Shown one piece after another: positions 25,228-30,000 of a DNA stretch of 31,528 nucleotides (positions within the stretch are counted from its first letter, which is position 1; every line of letters starts with the position of its first letter). Source of the DNA: Planctomycetes bacterium UBA2386 (GTDB lineage: Bacteria > Planctomycetota > UBA1135 > UBA2386); assembly GCA_002343845.1 (NCBI GenBank), contig DDSQ01000118.1, positions 12,724 through 44,251 on the forward strand, in the 5' to 3' direction. Both the position numbers and the translations under genes were made by a program. The notes beneath the pieces were generated by a model. That model had not been told where the DNA came from, did not search any database, and saw nothing but the letters and a program-made list of their open reading frames with translations.

Positions 25228-26643
25228 CTACTGCTGGCGGCCGACGGTGCCGCGAATCGAGTTGCCGAGCACGACGCCCGCTGCGTTGGCTCCCGGGTCG
25301 ACGGCGAACGGTTGCTGGAAGTACTCGACGCCGACCAGCGCCTGCGTGAACGGGATCGGCAGGGTCATGGTGGCGGTGGTGCCGGTGACGTTCGCCCAGG
25401 CGGTCGCCGCTGGGTCGATGTTCAGGAAGCACGACGGCATGCCGATCGACGCCAGCGACAGCGGCAACGGGACGCCGTTGGAGAACTGGTCGTCGAAGCC
25501 CATGCCGAGCCCGGCGAGCGGGCCGTTCAAGCCGACGATGTTCACGGAGAGCGTCTGGCCGATCCAGGCGCGCGACCAGCTCTCGGTGAGATAGAGCCCT
25601 GGGGAGAGGTTCTGGGTGCAGTGCGTGCCATGCCACTCGAACTCACTCGGGTAGGCGTCGCCGATGTAGCCGAGGTTGCCGGTCCCGTTCAGCAGGTAGA
25701 GCCGGTTGTGCACGCGGTCGTAGCTCTCGGTAAGCGGGTACGGCGCAATCGGCGTTCCTTGCGAAGGAACGCCAGCCCAGGAGGTCGGGCCGGTTCTCCG
25801 GAAGTACGTAGTCACGCCGGCATGCGTCTGCATGCGCATCAAGCAGCCACGATGCGCGTCGAACCAGATCGAGTTCCAGCCGAGGACGGGACCGCTGGAA
25901 CCCAGGAGTTGCCACCCACTACTGGCCGACCACTCCCAAGTGACACCCTCAAGACTCAAGACTTGGCCTTGTGAACTCACATGGCTTCGCCCGAATAGCA
26001 CAAGCCGGTCGATGCTCTCGTCGTAAGCGAACCCCAGGTAGAAGTACTTGCTGCCTAACGGCCCGATTGTGGGAGGCACCGTTGGGCCCGTCGGCAGTTG
26101 CGTGAAGAACACTCCATTCCATGAAGTCAGCGTGGGGCCTTGGACTCCGTCATGGAACATCAACTGACACGACTCGCCTCCAGGAACTGGACTGAAGGTA
26201 GCGAACATTCCTTTGGCCGCGCCTGCAAGCGGTGATGGCAGAGGTCCACGCGAACCAAGTGTAGATCCGGTCCATTCCCAGAGTTCAGGCGGCAGTTGCA
26301 CCTGACCCGTCGTGGCAGCTATCAGCACGTAGCCTCGATGGTCACCCTGGATCCAACGAACTGATGTGAATGGCAGGACTGTCATCAACGTCCATGACAC
26401 ACCATCGAACTCGTACAGTGATGCGCCGTCCAGCGAGACAACGCGGTCGCGGCCAGTGGCGTAGACACTGACACCTCCGAGACTCGTGTTCGGCGCGTTG
26501 GGTATCGGCGTCCAGGTCACTTGGGCCATGGAGAACGACGCGAAGAGATGCAGCGCCACGAAGCATGCTGCAGGAGATGCATGCTGAATCGCCACGGACG
26601 GCGATGCTCCGCAGCAGGTCTTTGACCTTGGCGAGAAGATCAC
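25228..26643 (-). CDS. Secreted Kelch-like beta-propeller protein
   Basis: 471 residues from a GTG that overlaps the upstream subtilase stop by four bases (GTGA, 26643-26640). The N-terminus has Arg/Lys then a hydrophobic run (ACFVALHLFASFSMAQ), a signal peptide probably cut after MAQ. Repeating units of the type W-x-W/E...P...(Y/F)D...R-L-V-L-F-G (for example FAYDESIDRLVLFG, VTWEWSASSGWQLLG, FEWHGTHC) suggest Kelch/galactose-oxidase-like blades. The last ~110 residues form a beta-rich module like those in the other secreted proteins here. No catalytic residues are recognised. G+C is clearly lower (about 52-57% in sampled lines between 25900 and 26640) than in neighbouring polA. The other possible start, the long frame to 26886, is antisense-like noise. 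Confidence 0.75.
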   Translation of the reverse strand: MIFSPRSKTCCGASPSVAIQHASPAACFVALHLFASFSMAQVTWTPIPNAPNTSLGGVSVYATGRDRVVSLDGASLYEFDGVSWTLMTVLPFTSVRWIQGDHRGYVLIAATTGQVQLPPELWEWTGSTLGSRGPLPSPLAGAAKGMFATFSPVPGGESCQLMFHDGVQGPTLTSWNGVFFTQLPTGPTVPPTIGPLGSKYFYLGFAYDESIDRLVLFGRSHVSSQGQVLSLEGVTWEWSASSGWQLLGSSGPVLGWNSIWFDAHRGCLMRMQTHAGVTTYFRRTGPTSWAGVPSQGTPIAPYPLTESYDRVHNRLYLLNGTGNLGYIGDAYPSEFEWHGTHCTQNLSPGLYLTESWSRAWIGQTLSVNIVGLNGPLAGLGMGFDDQFSNGVPLPLSLASIGMPSCFLNIDPAATAWANVTGTTATMTLPIPFTQALVGVEYFQQPFAVDPGANAAGVVLGNSIRGTVGRQQ

Positions 26644-29600
26644 AGCCCACCTCCGACGAACACATGCAGACCGTTTGAGAGGAACGTCCCGCCACCCGAT
26701 GGGAAGACCGCGGCCTGCAGTCCGAAGTCGGAGTGCACTACACCCGGGGGAAGCTGCACCGCCCAGCGAGCCATGCCGAACGCGTCGGTGATTGCAGGCC
26801 AACTGTTCGTCACGGTGCTCAGCCAGAGCGTGCACGGCGGCACCGCAATCGGCGCACTGCTCCAATCGCCGATCCCCAGCAGGCATGGGGCCAGGGCGTC
26901 ACCGCTGAACAGCTGCAGATCGAATGCACTGCCAGTCCCGGCGCCCGAACGGCTCCATGGCTCACCGCGCGCCACGAGACGCACTTCCCTGGCGGCCTGT
27001 GTGGAGTCGGCGATCAGGCCGAGGATCGGGGCCTGGCCCCATCCTGGCGTCGCCAACGACGGGTACGTCAAGTAGGGGACCGACCAGTAGTAGTCGACTG
27101 GCTGCCCTTGGCCGTCTCTCGTCCCATCGACCACGAACACCGGCACCGTCGACGATGTGTCCACCCGGATCCACATGTGCAACGAGCCGGTCCCCGTGTA
27201 GGAGAACGGCACGTCGAGCGGCAGCACGACGTTGAAGTCGCCCAAGCCGGTCGTGGTCATCGCGGCGCCGACACCGAAGGACGCCGGCGCCGAAACCGTG
27301 CGATTCGTGAGCACCTGCACGGCGTTGAGGGCCGAGGGCAAGATCATCGGCACCGGCGGGCTCTGCGGAGGGAACGTAGGCGGGTTGGGGTTGGGCGCTT
27401 GCCACCAACCTCCCTCCGCCAGCCACATTTCCTGTATCACCAGATCCTGTGCGCTGAACGGACCCCACGCCCGGAGCGCAATGCCACGGATCGTCATCGG
27501 CCCGCCGACGACGTTCGCAACGCTGTCGTTGCGGTAGAGAATGTGGATCAGGCCGCGGTACGGCATCTGGCTCGTGGACTGGCGCCCCCAACCGAGATCA
27601 AACCCGTTCTGGTAGCCGCGGTGGTTCAAGTAGGGTGCATTATTGAAAGGCTCGTACAGCTCGAATGCAGCGGAGCCGTAGGCCCAGTCGTAGGGCACGA
27701 TCCGATCGACCTGCCAGTCGCGGTCCGTTCGCGTGCATGTTCCACTGGCGGTCTGGACGGATCCGGACGCCGCTTGCACCCGGTCCGCCAGATCGGTCGT
27801 TGCGGTGTCGAGGTTGCTCCCGAGCCGGCGCCCGACCACCTGCACCGGCAATGCGGGGGTCAGCAAAGCCGTGTCGGCGCTCGACACGCGCAGGGTGACC
27901 GCCCCACCCGATGGCGCTACGAACACGACGCGCTCGTAGCTGTTCGCCGGCGTGATCGATCGGGCCAGCATCTGACCATTGCTGACGTCGAGGGCTTCCA
28001 GGTCGACGTTGGCCAGCGGCCCCTCGGGAACGACGAGGTCGTTCACGGGATCGTGCCAACGCCGCCAGCAGCAAACCACGGCATAGCGCTCGCCCGGCAG
28101 GAGGCCGGTGTACGAAGTCGTCACGACGGGAGTCGCTGTCGTGAGCGTCACCGTCGTCACGAGTGGCTGGATCGCCGAGTCCCGCGTCGCGAACTGCGCC
28201 AGGACGTCGTCGCGCACGTAGCCAAGGCCGAAGGTGTTGCGCCCGGTGTAGCTGTGCTGGTCCCCCGGCTCGGACGACGCCCCGTCCTGGCGGCTGTAGG
28301 TGCCGACCGTGTTGAGGAGGATCGCTGCACGCGTTTCCTCGGCGGACGCGGAAGTCACGTAGCCGCGGTACAGCAGGGCAGCTCCCGCCACCTGCGCCGA
28401 CGCCGCGCTGGTGCCGATGTTGGGCCGGACCGGCGACACGCGGTTGCCACCTGTCTGCGCAGCCGGGTCAGCGATATCGATCCCCGGAGCGAGCATGCAC
28501 CCGCTCACGAACCAGTTGTTGAACGTCGGGTACTGGAAGCCGAGGACCCCACCGGTGAACTGCCCCTTGCCGCCGCCCGTCGCGCAGACGTCCGGGTAGT
28601 AGCGGCCCGGATTCTGGTCGAGCGGCCCACGCGAGGACTGCGGGATCGGAACGAAGGCGAGGTTCTGGTTCGTGCCGACCACGCGCGCATGCACGCCGCC
28701 AACTGCGAGTCCGTGGTAGAAGCCGTTGCTCGAGCGCGAGGAGTCGCCGCCGTTGCCGGCGTTGGTGACGATCAGCAGGTCCTCCTGTCGGGCCAGCGAG
28801 TCGAGAGCAACGCTCACCGGATGGTCCGGGGACGGACGACCCGCGATGGAGAGGTTGACGACATCGACGTCGTTCCCGAGCAGGATGTACGTGCGCAGCT
28901 CTTCGATGCCGCCGAGATAGCCTTCGTCGGTGAACACCCAGGGGTTCGCGGCAGAGAGCTGTTGGCCGGGGATGTTGTCTAGCGAGCTGCAGGCTACGTC
29001 GACGATCATCGCGTCGGGAGCATGTCCAAATCCTGAGAAGGACTGATACGAAGAGCCGGCTGAGATTGCCGCCATGGCGGTTCCGTGTCCGCAAGTCTCG
29101 GCATGCACCAAGGGCCGGTAGCCAACGGTCCCTGCATTAGGTGGAGGCGAATGTGGGAAAGGTAGACACAACCGGGGTTGTGCGGTGGTCAACCGGTTGC
29201 AGTTCACATGATTGGCTTCGTTCACGACCAAGTGCGCCACGACGCGCGTCTGCCCCGCTCCGTTGTCGAACGCCGGATGCGGCCCAGGCCCCGACGACCC
29301 TCCGGTGATGTTGTAGTCGATGCCCGAATCGAACACGGCGAGCGTCGCGCCGGCCCCGCGGTAAGGCGCGCCGGCCCCGCCGAGCAAGGACCACGCCGCC
29401 ACGACGTTGTGGTTCGCGGCATCCACGGCATCCACTTGCGGCGGCACCACGGGCATGGGTGCTTCGAGCACCTCGCTGGCCGGCACAGCCGGAGATCCGA
29501 GGTCGGCATCGGCGGCGCTGTGGGCCTGCACCGGCCACGCCGAGTGCACACGCGCCAGCTGTCGAAGCGCGGGCACGGCAACCGCCGGAACCTCGATGCT

Positions 29601-29966
29601 GATCGCATTGAGGTGCCAGTAGTGTCGGGCGACGACGCCACCCGCCGCCTGCACCGCCTGCGCGATCCCCGCCTGATCCGTCTGCGCCAGCGCCCGCAGA
29701 TTCGCTACCAACGCCGCGCGCGCGGCGACCGGTGCCTGCTTGATGTTCGCGATCGCCTGCTGCAAGTTGTAGCCGCGATTCTTCAGCAGCAGGATCCACC
29801 GCTCGCTCCCCGGCGCCGCGCCCGGCAAGGCCGTGCTGGTGCTGGTCGTCACGACCTGCGCCCGTCCCGTCTCAGCAACGCCGCCTGCTACCAGGAAGAG
29901 CAGAGTGAGTGAGTGAGTGAGTGAGTGAGTGAGTGAGTGAGTGAGTGAGTGAGTGATCGTCTTCAT
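26640..29966 (-). CDS. Secreted subtilase (S8) with a phase-variable-type repeat in its signal peptide
   Basis: 1108 residues from the ATG at 29966 (an upstream in-frame TTG at 29972 adds two residues). The signal peptide contains four and a quarter copies of T-H-S-L (residues 5-21) before the hydrophobic core LLFLVAGG; this is encoded by a 54-bp tetranucleotide tract. An inhibitor-like propeptide follows (~55-145). The S8 triad is complete: Asp213 (VFDSGID), His294 (CGHGTAM), Ser520 (GTSAASAQ), with Asn405 (NAGNGG) as oxyanion residue. A large C-terminal beta region (~600-1108) ends in a module like the other secreted proteins (DAFGMARWAVQLPPG...LQAAVF...SNGLHVFVGGGL). It probably works outside the cell or on its surface. 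Its stop overlaps the start of the Kelch-like gene, so the two are coupled. Confidence 0.93.
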   Translation of the reverse strand: MKTITHSLTHSLTHSLTHSLTLLFLVAGGVAETGRAQVVTTSTSTALPGAAPGSERWILLLKNRGYNLQQAIANIKQAPVAARAALVANLRALAQTDQAGIAQAVQAAGGVVARHYWHLNAISIEVPAVAVPALRQLARVHSAWPVQAHSAADADLGSPAVPASEVLEAPMPVVPPQVDAVDAANHNVVAAWSLLGGAGAPYRGAGATLAVFDSGIDYNITGGSSGPGPHPAFDNGAGQTRVVAHLVVNEANHVNCNRLTTAQPRLCLPFPHSPPPNAGTVGYRPLVHAETCGHGTAMAAISAGSSYQSFSGFGHAPDAMIVDVACSSLDNIPGQQLSAANPWVFTDEGYLGGIEELRTYILLGNDVDVVNLSIAGRPSPDHPVSVALDSLARQEDLLIVTNAGNGGDSSRSSNGFYHGLAVGGVHARVVGTNQNLAFVPIPQSSRGPLDQNPGRYYPDVCATGGGKGQFTGGVLGFQYPTFNNWFVSGCMLAPGIDIADPAAQTGGNRVSPVRPNIGTSAASAQVAGAALLYRGYVTSASAEETRAAILLNTVGTYSRQDGASSEPGDQHSYTGRNTFGLGYVRDDVLAQFATRDSAIQPLVTTVTLTTATPVVTTSYTGLLPGERYAVVCCWRRWHDPVNDLVVPEGPLANVDLEALDVSNGQMLARSITPANSYERVVFVAPSGGAVTLRVSSADTALLTPALPVQVVGRRLGSNLDTATTDLADRVQAASGSVQTASGTCTRTDRDWQVDRIVPYDWAYGSAAFELYEPFNNAPYLNHRGYQNGFDLGWGRQSTSQMPYRGLIHILYRNDSVANVVGGPMTIRGIALRAWGPFSAQDLVIQEMWLAEGGWWQAPNPNPPTFPPQSPPVPMILPSALNAVQVLTNRTVSAPASFGVGAAMTTTGLGDFNVVLPLDVPFSYTGTGSLHMWIRVDTSSTVPVFVVDGTRDGQGQPVDYYWSVPYLTYPSLATPGWGQAPILGLIADSTQAAREVRLVARGEPWSRSGAGTGSAFDLQLFSGDALAPCLLGIGDWSSAPIAVPPCTLWLSTVTNSWPAITDAFGMARWAVQLPPGVVHSDFGLQAAVFPSGGGTFLSNGLHVFVGGGL
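29903..29956. repeat. Tetranucleotide tract (GAGT/ACTC), 13.5 units
   Basis: 54 bp of uninterrupted period-4 sequence within the signal-peptide codons of the subtilase. On the coding strand it is a TCAC repeat that encodes Ser-Leu-Thr-His in rotation in every frame, so the tract itself has no stop in any frame. A change of one unit shifts the frame; just downstream TAG (29890-29888) and TGA (29874-29872) close the two other frames. Confidence 0.97.
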
Positions 29967-30000
29967 GGGCAAGCCGGCTGCTCCGTGCGGCGACCGACGA

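Follow-up and report, generated by a model that had tools for sequence, protein, structure and literature searches.

A tetranucleotide tract in the signal-peptide codons of a planctomycete subtilase gene: a probable phase-variation switch with counterparts in other secreted-protein genes of its order

A predicted protease gene of Planctomycetes bacterium UBA2386 carries a run of four-base repeats near its start codon, and the question raised by this locus is whether the repeat acts as a switch that moves the gene in and out of frame. The gene lies on the minus strand of the window (the whole stretch of DNA analyzed, 31,528 nucleotides) at 26640..29966, stop codon included, and encodes 1108 amino acids (aa), in frame (ON) as sequenced. 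Its product was assigned to the S8 subtilases on the basis of a Peptidase_S8 domain above the cut-off (PF00082, E 1e-13, 51.7 bits versus a cut-off of 21.8; residues 205-553, 28308..29354, minus strand) and of the Asp213, His294 and Ser520 triad, which was kept in all eight aligned proteins, bearing out the statement in the initial annotation that the ON-frame protein has an intact catalytic triad. PF00082 was the only Pfam match of the protein at E up to 1, with no autotransporter beta-domain, and no Protein Data Bank chain matched at E 0.001. Examined by eye, the ON-frame signal peptide (29859..29966, minus strand) reads MKTITHSLTHSLTHSLTHSLTLLFLVAGGVAETGRA|Q, with a probable cleavage site at A36|Q37 (GRA|QVV), and an A|Q site was also seen in relatives. 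Judged from the sequence, the repeat falls among the codons that specify the signal peptide of an exported protein.

Tandem Repeats Finder placed the tract at 29903..29956 on the minus strand (period 4, 13.5 copies, 100% match, score 108), in agreement with the 54-bp tetranucleotide tract of 13.5 units described initially. This perfect 54-nt (CACT)13.5 starts 10 nt past the A of the ATG at 29966 (29964..29966, minus strand) and occupies nucleotides 11-64 of the gene, covering codons 4-22 and thus slightly more than the codons 5-21 first proposed. The open reading frame list opens the gene at a TTG 6 nt upstream (29972-29970; ORF 26640-29972), and both the TTG and the ATG are in frame with the ON reading. 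In a frame test, the loss of one unit gave a peptide of 24 aa, closed by a TAG at 29888..29890 (minus strand), and the gain of one unit gave a peptide of 32 aa, closed by a TGA at 29872..29874 (minus strand), while a change of three units regained the frame. Both stops were found at the positions that had been claimed for them, and the single-unit OFF states did encode short peptides only. When whole-unit changes were computed from 9 to 17 units, tracts of 10, 13, and 16 units gave the full-length protein and the other six lengths gave 20-36 residues. Every frame through the tract encodes THSL repeats, and the signal peptide can therefore tolerate in-frame changes in length. A long perfect repeat with a non-triplet unit in the 5' coding region and an early end of the alternative frames (here 24 and 32 aa) are the marks of a contingency locus, and both were found at this gene.

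Such a tract is not expected by chance in this DNA. Across 200 first-order Markov simulations with the dinucleotide make-up of the window, period-4 repeats reached 15 nt at most, versus 54 nt in the real sequence, and the tract was the sole perfect repeat listed there in a scan for units of 1-8 nt. We consider it very likely that (CACT)13.5 serves as a contingency locus, a phase-variation switch of the slipped-strand type. Units of 4 nt would be gained or lost by slippage during replication. In one of the three length classes, translation from the start codon would run through a working signal peptide into the subtilase (ON); the remaining two would be OFF, with a stop after 20-36 residues at 9-17 units and a presumed loss of the protein. 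Switching within a clone would be reversible.

If the tract is a switch, relatives of the gene may be expected to carry one too. A protein search returned five subtilase homologues, 42-53% identical (7,988 candidates scored), and a repeat of the homologue search with an eight-row alignment (about 7,990 candidates scored) returned the same five proteins; the two of the five that bear a taxon name belong to Planctomycetota metagenome-assembled genomes (MAGs). The annotated N-termini of P0002, P0003, and P0004 are short, and P0006 starts inside the protein. P0005, the sole one of the five database homologues to show a complete signal peptide, has an ordinary one without a repeat. The nearest homologue, P0002, is known as a protein sequence only.

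At the DNA level, a search of genome contigs matched four loci, one of which belongs to a haloarchaeon and was dropped. Locus L002, which encodes P0003, carries (CT)14.5 following a TTG, and its paralogue in the same MAG, L001, carries (CT)19.5 following ATGCG. As assembled, neither gene is in frame; with one CT unit less they contain open frames of 1067 (L002) and 1060 (L001) residues. The annotated start of P0003 lies just beyond the tract, which indicates that automatic gene calls will clip the signal peptides of genes assembled OFF. Among the 154 genomes of the order, three gave a match at E<=1e-30 when no more than five candidates per genome were scored. The subtilase of genome G130 on contig C90 has (TGTCC)7.2 near its start and is also out of frame as assembled. 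No tract was found in the subtilase relatives L003, G096 (L032), and G130:C121 (L034), which are more distant and match the family more weakly. The last of these, a second subtilase relative in G130 (L034/L035), contains an internal TAG. A search of the class, which comprised the same 154 genomes (at most five candidates per genome), and one of the phylum (392 genomes, at most two candidates per genome) gave no further subtilase relative at the threshold. In all, four of the seven family members read at the DNA level carry a tract, with three different units. The initial annotation had asked whether an orthologue retains the repeat with another copy number; a repeat is indeed present at the same place in three relatives, but its unit is different, CT or TGTCC, and the three distant ones are without.

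We then searched the whole order for such tracts. The window was placed in this order by its DNA polymerase I, which is 82% identical to that of G147, 80% to those of G152 and G150, 76% to those of G134 and G136, and 61% to that of G130. A repeat-blind scan (units of 1, 2, 4, 5, 7, and 8 nt; thresholds of 11-26 nt depending on the unit) covered 349 kb of G130, 108 kb of G001, 246 kb of G134 (L186-L200) and the window. It found three perfect repeats of at least 20 nt (G130:C8, G130:C20, and the window), all of them in signal peptides. The G152 tract, whose contig had been chosen on purpose, was the sole such repeat across 291 kb of G147 and G152. In the 7.8 Mb of G001, (CT)>=9 occurs at three places, two of which are the subtilases L001 and L002. 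The third tract of this genome, (CT)15 at G001:C450:31968-31997 (L029 3969-3998), is without a clear signal-peptide gene.

Tracts were classified with a signal-peptide rule. A start codon reading into the tract had to lie at most 60 nt upstream, the frame beyond had to stay open over 150 codons (or over 35 where it ran to a contig end), and a sparsely charged hydrophobic stretch had to precede an [AVSTGL]xA site. (CACT)>=6 was found at eight places in 5 of the 154 genomes. All eight start 3-23 nt past the A of an ATG, and seven passed the rule (opposite strand 0/8), the exception being L040, whose frame has just 85 codons. The CACT locus L036 may encode a membrane anchor and not a cleaved signal. 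(CT)>=9 was found at 86 places, of which 30 passed on the CT strand versus 2 on the other (binomial p 2e-7, with 85 loci entered and one duplicate locus left out), in 14 genomes. By eye, L127, L167, and L180 seemed to be chance matches, without which 27 tracts from 12 genomes are left, and L125, L152, L173, and L177 were apparent true cases missed by the rule. A looser rule, requiring a long frame from the tract but no signal-peptide features, separated the strands weakly (32 vs 21 of 79 CT tracts), and a rule requiring one single long frame gave 34 vs 11 of 79. Five other CT tracts (L064, L144, L146, L163, and L169) seemed by eye to lie upstream of the start codons of exported proteins; these are perhaps 5' untranslated and could vary expression rather than frame.

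Runs of TGTCC x4 were found as five tracts, in 4 of the 154 genomes. One of the five (G131) passed the rule; the tract of the G130 subtilase failed it, yet sits behind an ATG and a hydrophobic stretch. Of the others, the G129 tract is not in a signal peptide and the two in G031 stop at contig edges. At the protein level, L182, an STHDW-type protein, has 55 relatives in the database, and three of these (P0023, P0025, and P0026) open with THSLTHSL after one or two residues. P0045 opens with a threefold EARSSKL, which is what a seven-base repeat would encode; such a unit was absent from the 278 loci examined.

The subtilases are one of several tract-bearing families. Genes of a galactose-oxidase-like family, linked by 27-44% identity and each with a rule-positive signal peptide, carry CT in G134 (L184/L185) and G150 (L282, 44% identical to L184), CACT in G089 (L037), and TGTCC in G131 (L283). 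Penicillin-amidase-like L072 and L147 (G131) are a further tract-bearing enzyme type, and many other open reading frames scanned matched no Pfam family. The CACT-bearing STHDW-type gene L048 (G136:C16, about 1475-2812) is cut short and continues without a frame break into a Cas6 domain (PF09559, E 5e-53); a genuine gene fusion, read-through, or a join made during assembly could each account for this. The window gene is one of several secreted-protein genes in the order with CT, CACT, or TGTCC tracts in their signal peptides.

The main rival to the slipped-strand switch is a neutral microsatellite: repeats born of slippage would accumulate in signal peptides, which tolerate low-complexity hydrophobic or Ser/Leu-rich sequence, with no selection for switching. 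Constraint on signal peptides is loose, and a triplet repeat, which keeps the frame, can be found in one. Of 27 places in the order with (CTG)7, 21 were examined; four passed the rule on the sense strand and one on the other, although by eye only L235 has a convincing signal peptide. The proportion for CT is not significantly higher than for CTG (30/86 vs 4/21, Fisher p 0.13), but that for CACT is (7/8 vs 4/21, p 0.001). GCT(CT)8 passed at 10 of 25 places in the order versus 1 of 11 outside (L269; p 0.07), the outside sample being 212 Planctomycetota genomes with 13 of the order among them. The strand control is strong, and the triplet and out-of-order controls agree with it in direction but are weak for CT. 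Reading the repeat backwards is not an independent control for CACT and CT and was not used. Against neutrality, units of 2, 4, and 5 nt would disrupt the gene at two out of every three lengths and yet persist, and units replace one another in both the subtilase and the galactose-oxidase-like families. We therefore regard the neutral reading as improbable, and purifying selection on a pair of genes assembled OFF, described below, also argues against it. H-DNA formation was set aside as a reason for the tracts, since neither CACT nor TGTCC consists of pyrimidines alone.

A slipping tract would be expected to differ between close copies. Tract lengths, taken from assemblies that are mostly fragmented, did differ between close copies within one genome, and the difference changed the frame in three of eight groups, all in related genomes. 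The two galactose-oxidase-like copies of G134 have tracts of 30 and 26 nt between flanks identical at 44/45 bases upstream and 292/300 downstream. The G105 pair has tracts of 25 and 27 nt (44/45 bases identical upstream, 52/60 downstream), and three G043 copies have, by hand count, 30, 18, and 26 nt, each followed by CTGGCC, being in, in, and out of frame, with frame-changing differences of 4 or 8 nt. In the five remaining groups (two in G049, one in G130, the G134 CACT pair, and the G136 CACT pair), the net difference was 12 or 15 nt and keeps the frame; these values were hand-counted, leaving out L124, a third G130 copy that differs upstream too. The initial annotation held that changes solely in frame-keeping steps would speak against a switch, and the steps of 4 nt (G134), 2 nt (G105), and 4 or 8 nt (G043) in these related genomes are not of that kind.

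Lengths and OFF states could also be errors or chimeras of assembly or sequencing. Several tracts are at or near contig ends (L058/L183, L083, L084, L124, L156, L164, L175, L279, L254, and L262), as this explanation would have it, but many genomes carry tracts with three units and the same placement, and the G134 galactose-oxidase-like pair is well inside its contigs, making an artefact a very remote prospect.

The frame of the tracts was then considered. Nine of 36 tracts in a first set were in frame (L036, L040, and L048 depending on the start codon chosen), as were 8 of the 30 rule-positive CT loci, and neither proportion differs from one third. Whichever of the candidate start codons was used, all four G049 copies came out "off" in one and the same frame, and because of this another start codon is possible there. 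With 22 of the 30 rule-positive CT loci out of frame from the nearest start (random-frame p 0.56), the OFF-tract genes might be taken for pseudogenes and the window gene for one in frame by chance. However, most of the bodies are open over hundreds of codons, and dN/dS was 0.22 (G134 galactose-oxidase-like pair, 644 aligned codons), 0.22 (G049), 0.29 (G130), and 0.49 (G105) in the four close pairs with enough differences, two more having too few. The G134 copies are both OFF, in two different frames, and the pair is under purifying selection, as a reversible switch would predict. Decay is hence highly unlikely in our estimation. Taken together, the comparative evidence favors a slipped-strand switch over chance, artefact, neutral repeat, and decay, and the phase-variation reading proposed from the window is well supported by the tracts of relatives and the lengths in close copies, insofar as genome comparison can support it.

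The flanks of the tracts suggest that the 5' end has been copied or gene-converted, which is best seen in the G134 pair, inside contigs. Upstream of the tract, its copies are 98 and 90% identical in the first two 60-nt bins and then about 50-72%; downstream, they are 93-100% identical over the first 360 nt and then mostly 70-88%. The G105 pair is 98% identical upstream (one bin, at a contig end); downstream, identity is 87% in the bin next to the tract and 48-77% farther on, and the G130 and G049 pairs show a weaker rise of identity near the tract. L183/L058 (G134:C120, at a contig end) and L181/L039 share 112 of 113 upstream bases and the same first bases past the tract, followed by unrelated protein bodies, which reflects either a cassette exchange or an assembly chimera. 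It is conceivable, though we lean slightly the other way, that the signal peptide serves this order as a switch point for secreted proteins in general, with a cassette of start codon, tract, and export signal that is copied or homogenized and whose unit is replaced over time. If this is true, each cell would display a random subset of the secretome, including proteases, enzymes of the galactose-oxidase-like and amidase-like types, and functionally uncharacterized proteins.

As far as is known, most Planctomycetota of this type are free-living. PMC4060949 describes a strong correlation between long simple repeats in a genome and dependence on a eukaryotic host. If these organisms are free-living, one may ask what favors secreted-protein-plus and -minus cells outside a host, be it phage, predators, or shared secreted enzymes; the benefit would be one of bet-hedging. 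No paper on repeat-based phase variation in Planctomycetota was found in searches of an open-access library.

The tetranucleotide contingency loci of Haemophilus, a host-bound organism, are mostly in genes for lipopolysaccharide (LPS) modification and surface structures. The window gene likewise has a tetranucleotide repeat in its 5' coding region but encodes a secreted subtilase. In the opa genes of Neisseria, as an excerpt of PMC3960869 describes, CTCTT repeats in the leader peptide shift the frame by slippage and switch a surface protein. The window gene resembles them in having a non-triplet repeat in its leader-peptide codons, but its unit is CACT and its product an S8 subtilase and not an Opa outer-membrane protein; unlike in that host-bound pathogen, the repeats of this other phylum occur in several unrelated secreted families and with several units. 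The locus would thus work like opa without being an opa gene. NalP of Neisseria meningitidis is, in an excerpt of PMC5472700, a phase-variable subtilisin-like protease with slippage in its coding region. The window gene similarly combines a subtilisin-like protease and a coding-region tract that would be prone to slippage, but NalP has a poly-C tract and is an autotransporter lipoprotein, whereas no autotransporter domain was found in the window protein. The novelty put forward initially is accordingly narrower, since a leader-peptide repeat (Opa) and a phase-variable subtilisin-like protease (NalP) were both known, and holds for Planctomycetota in the literature covered. The mechanism would be of the known Opa and NalP kind, and what appears to be new is its recurrence in unrelated secreted families of one lineage.
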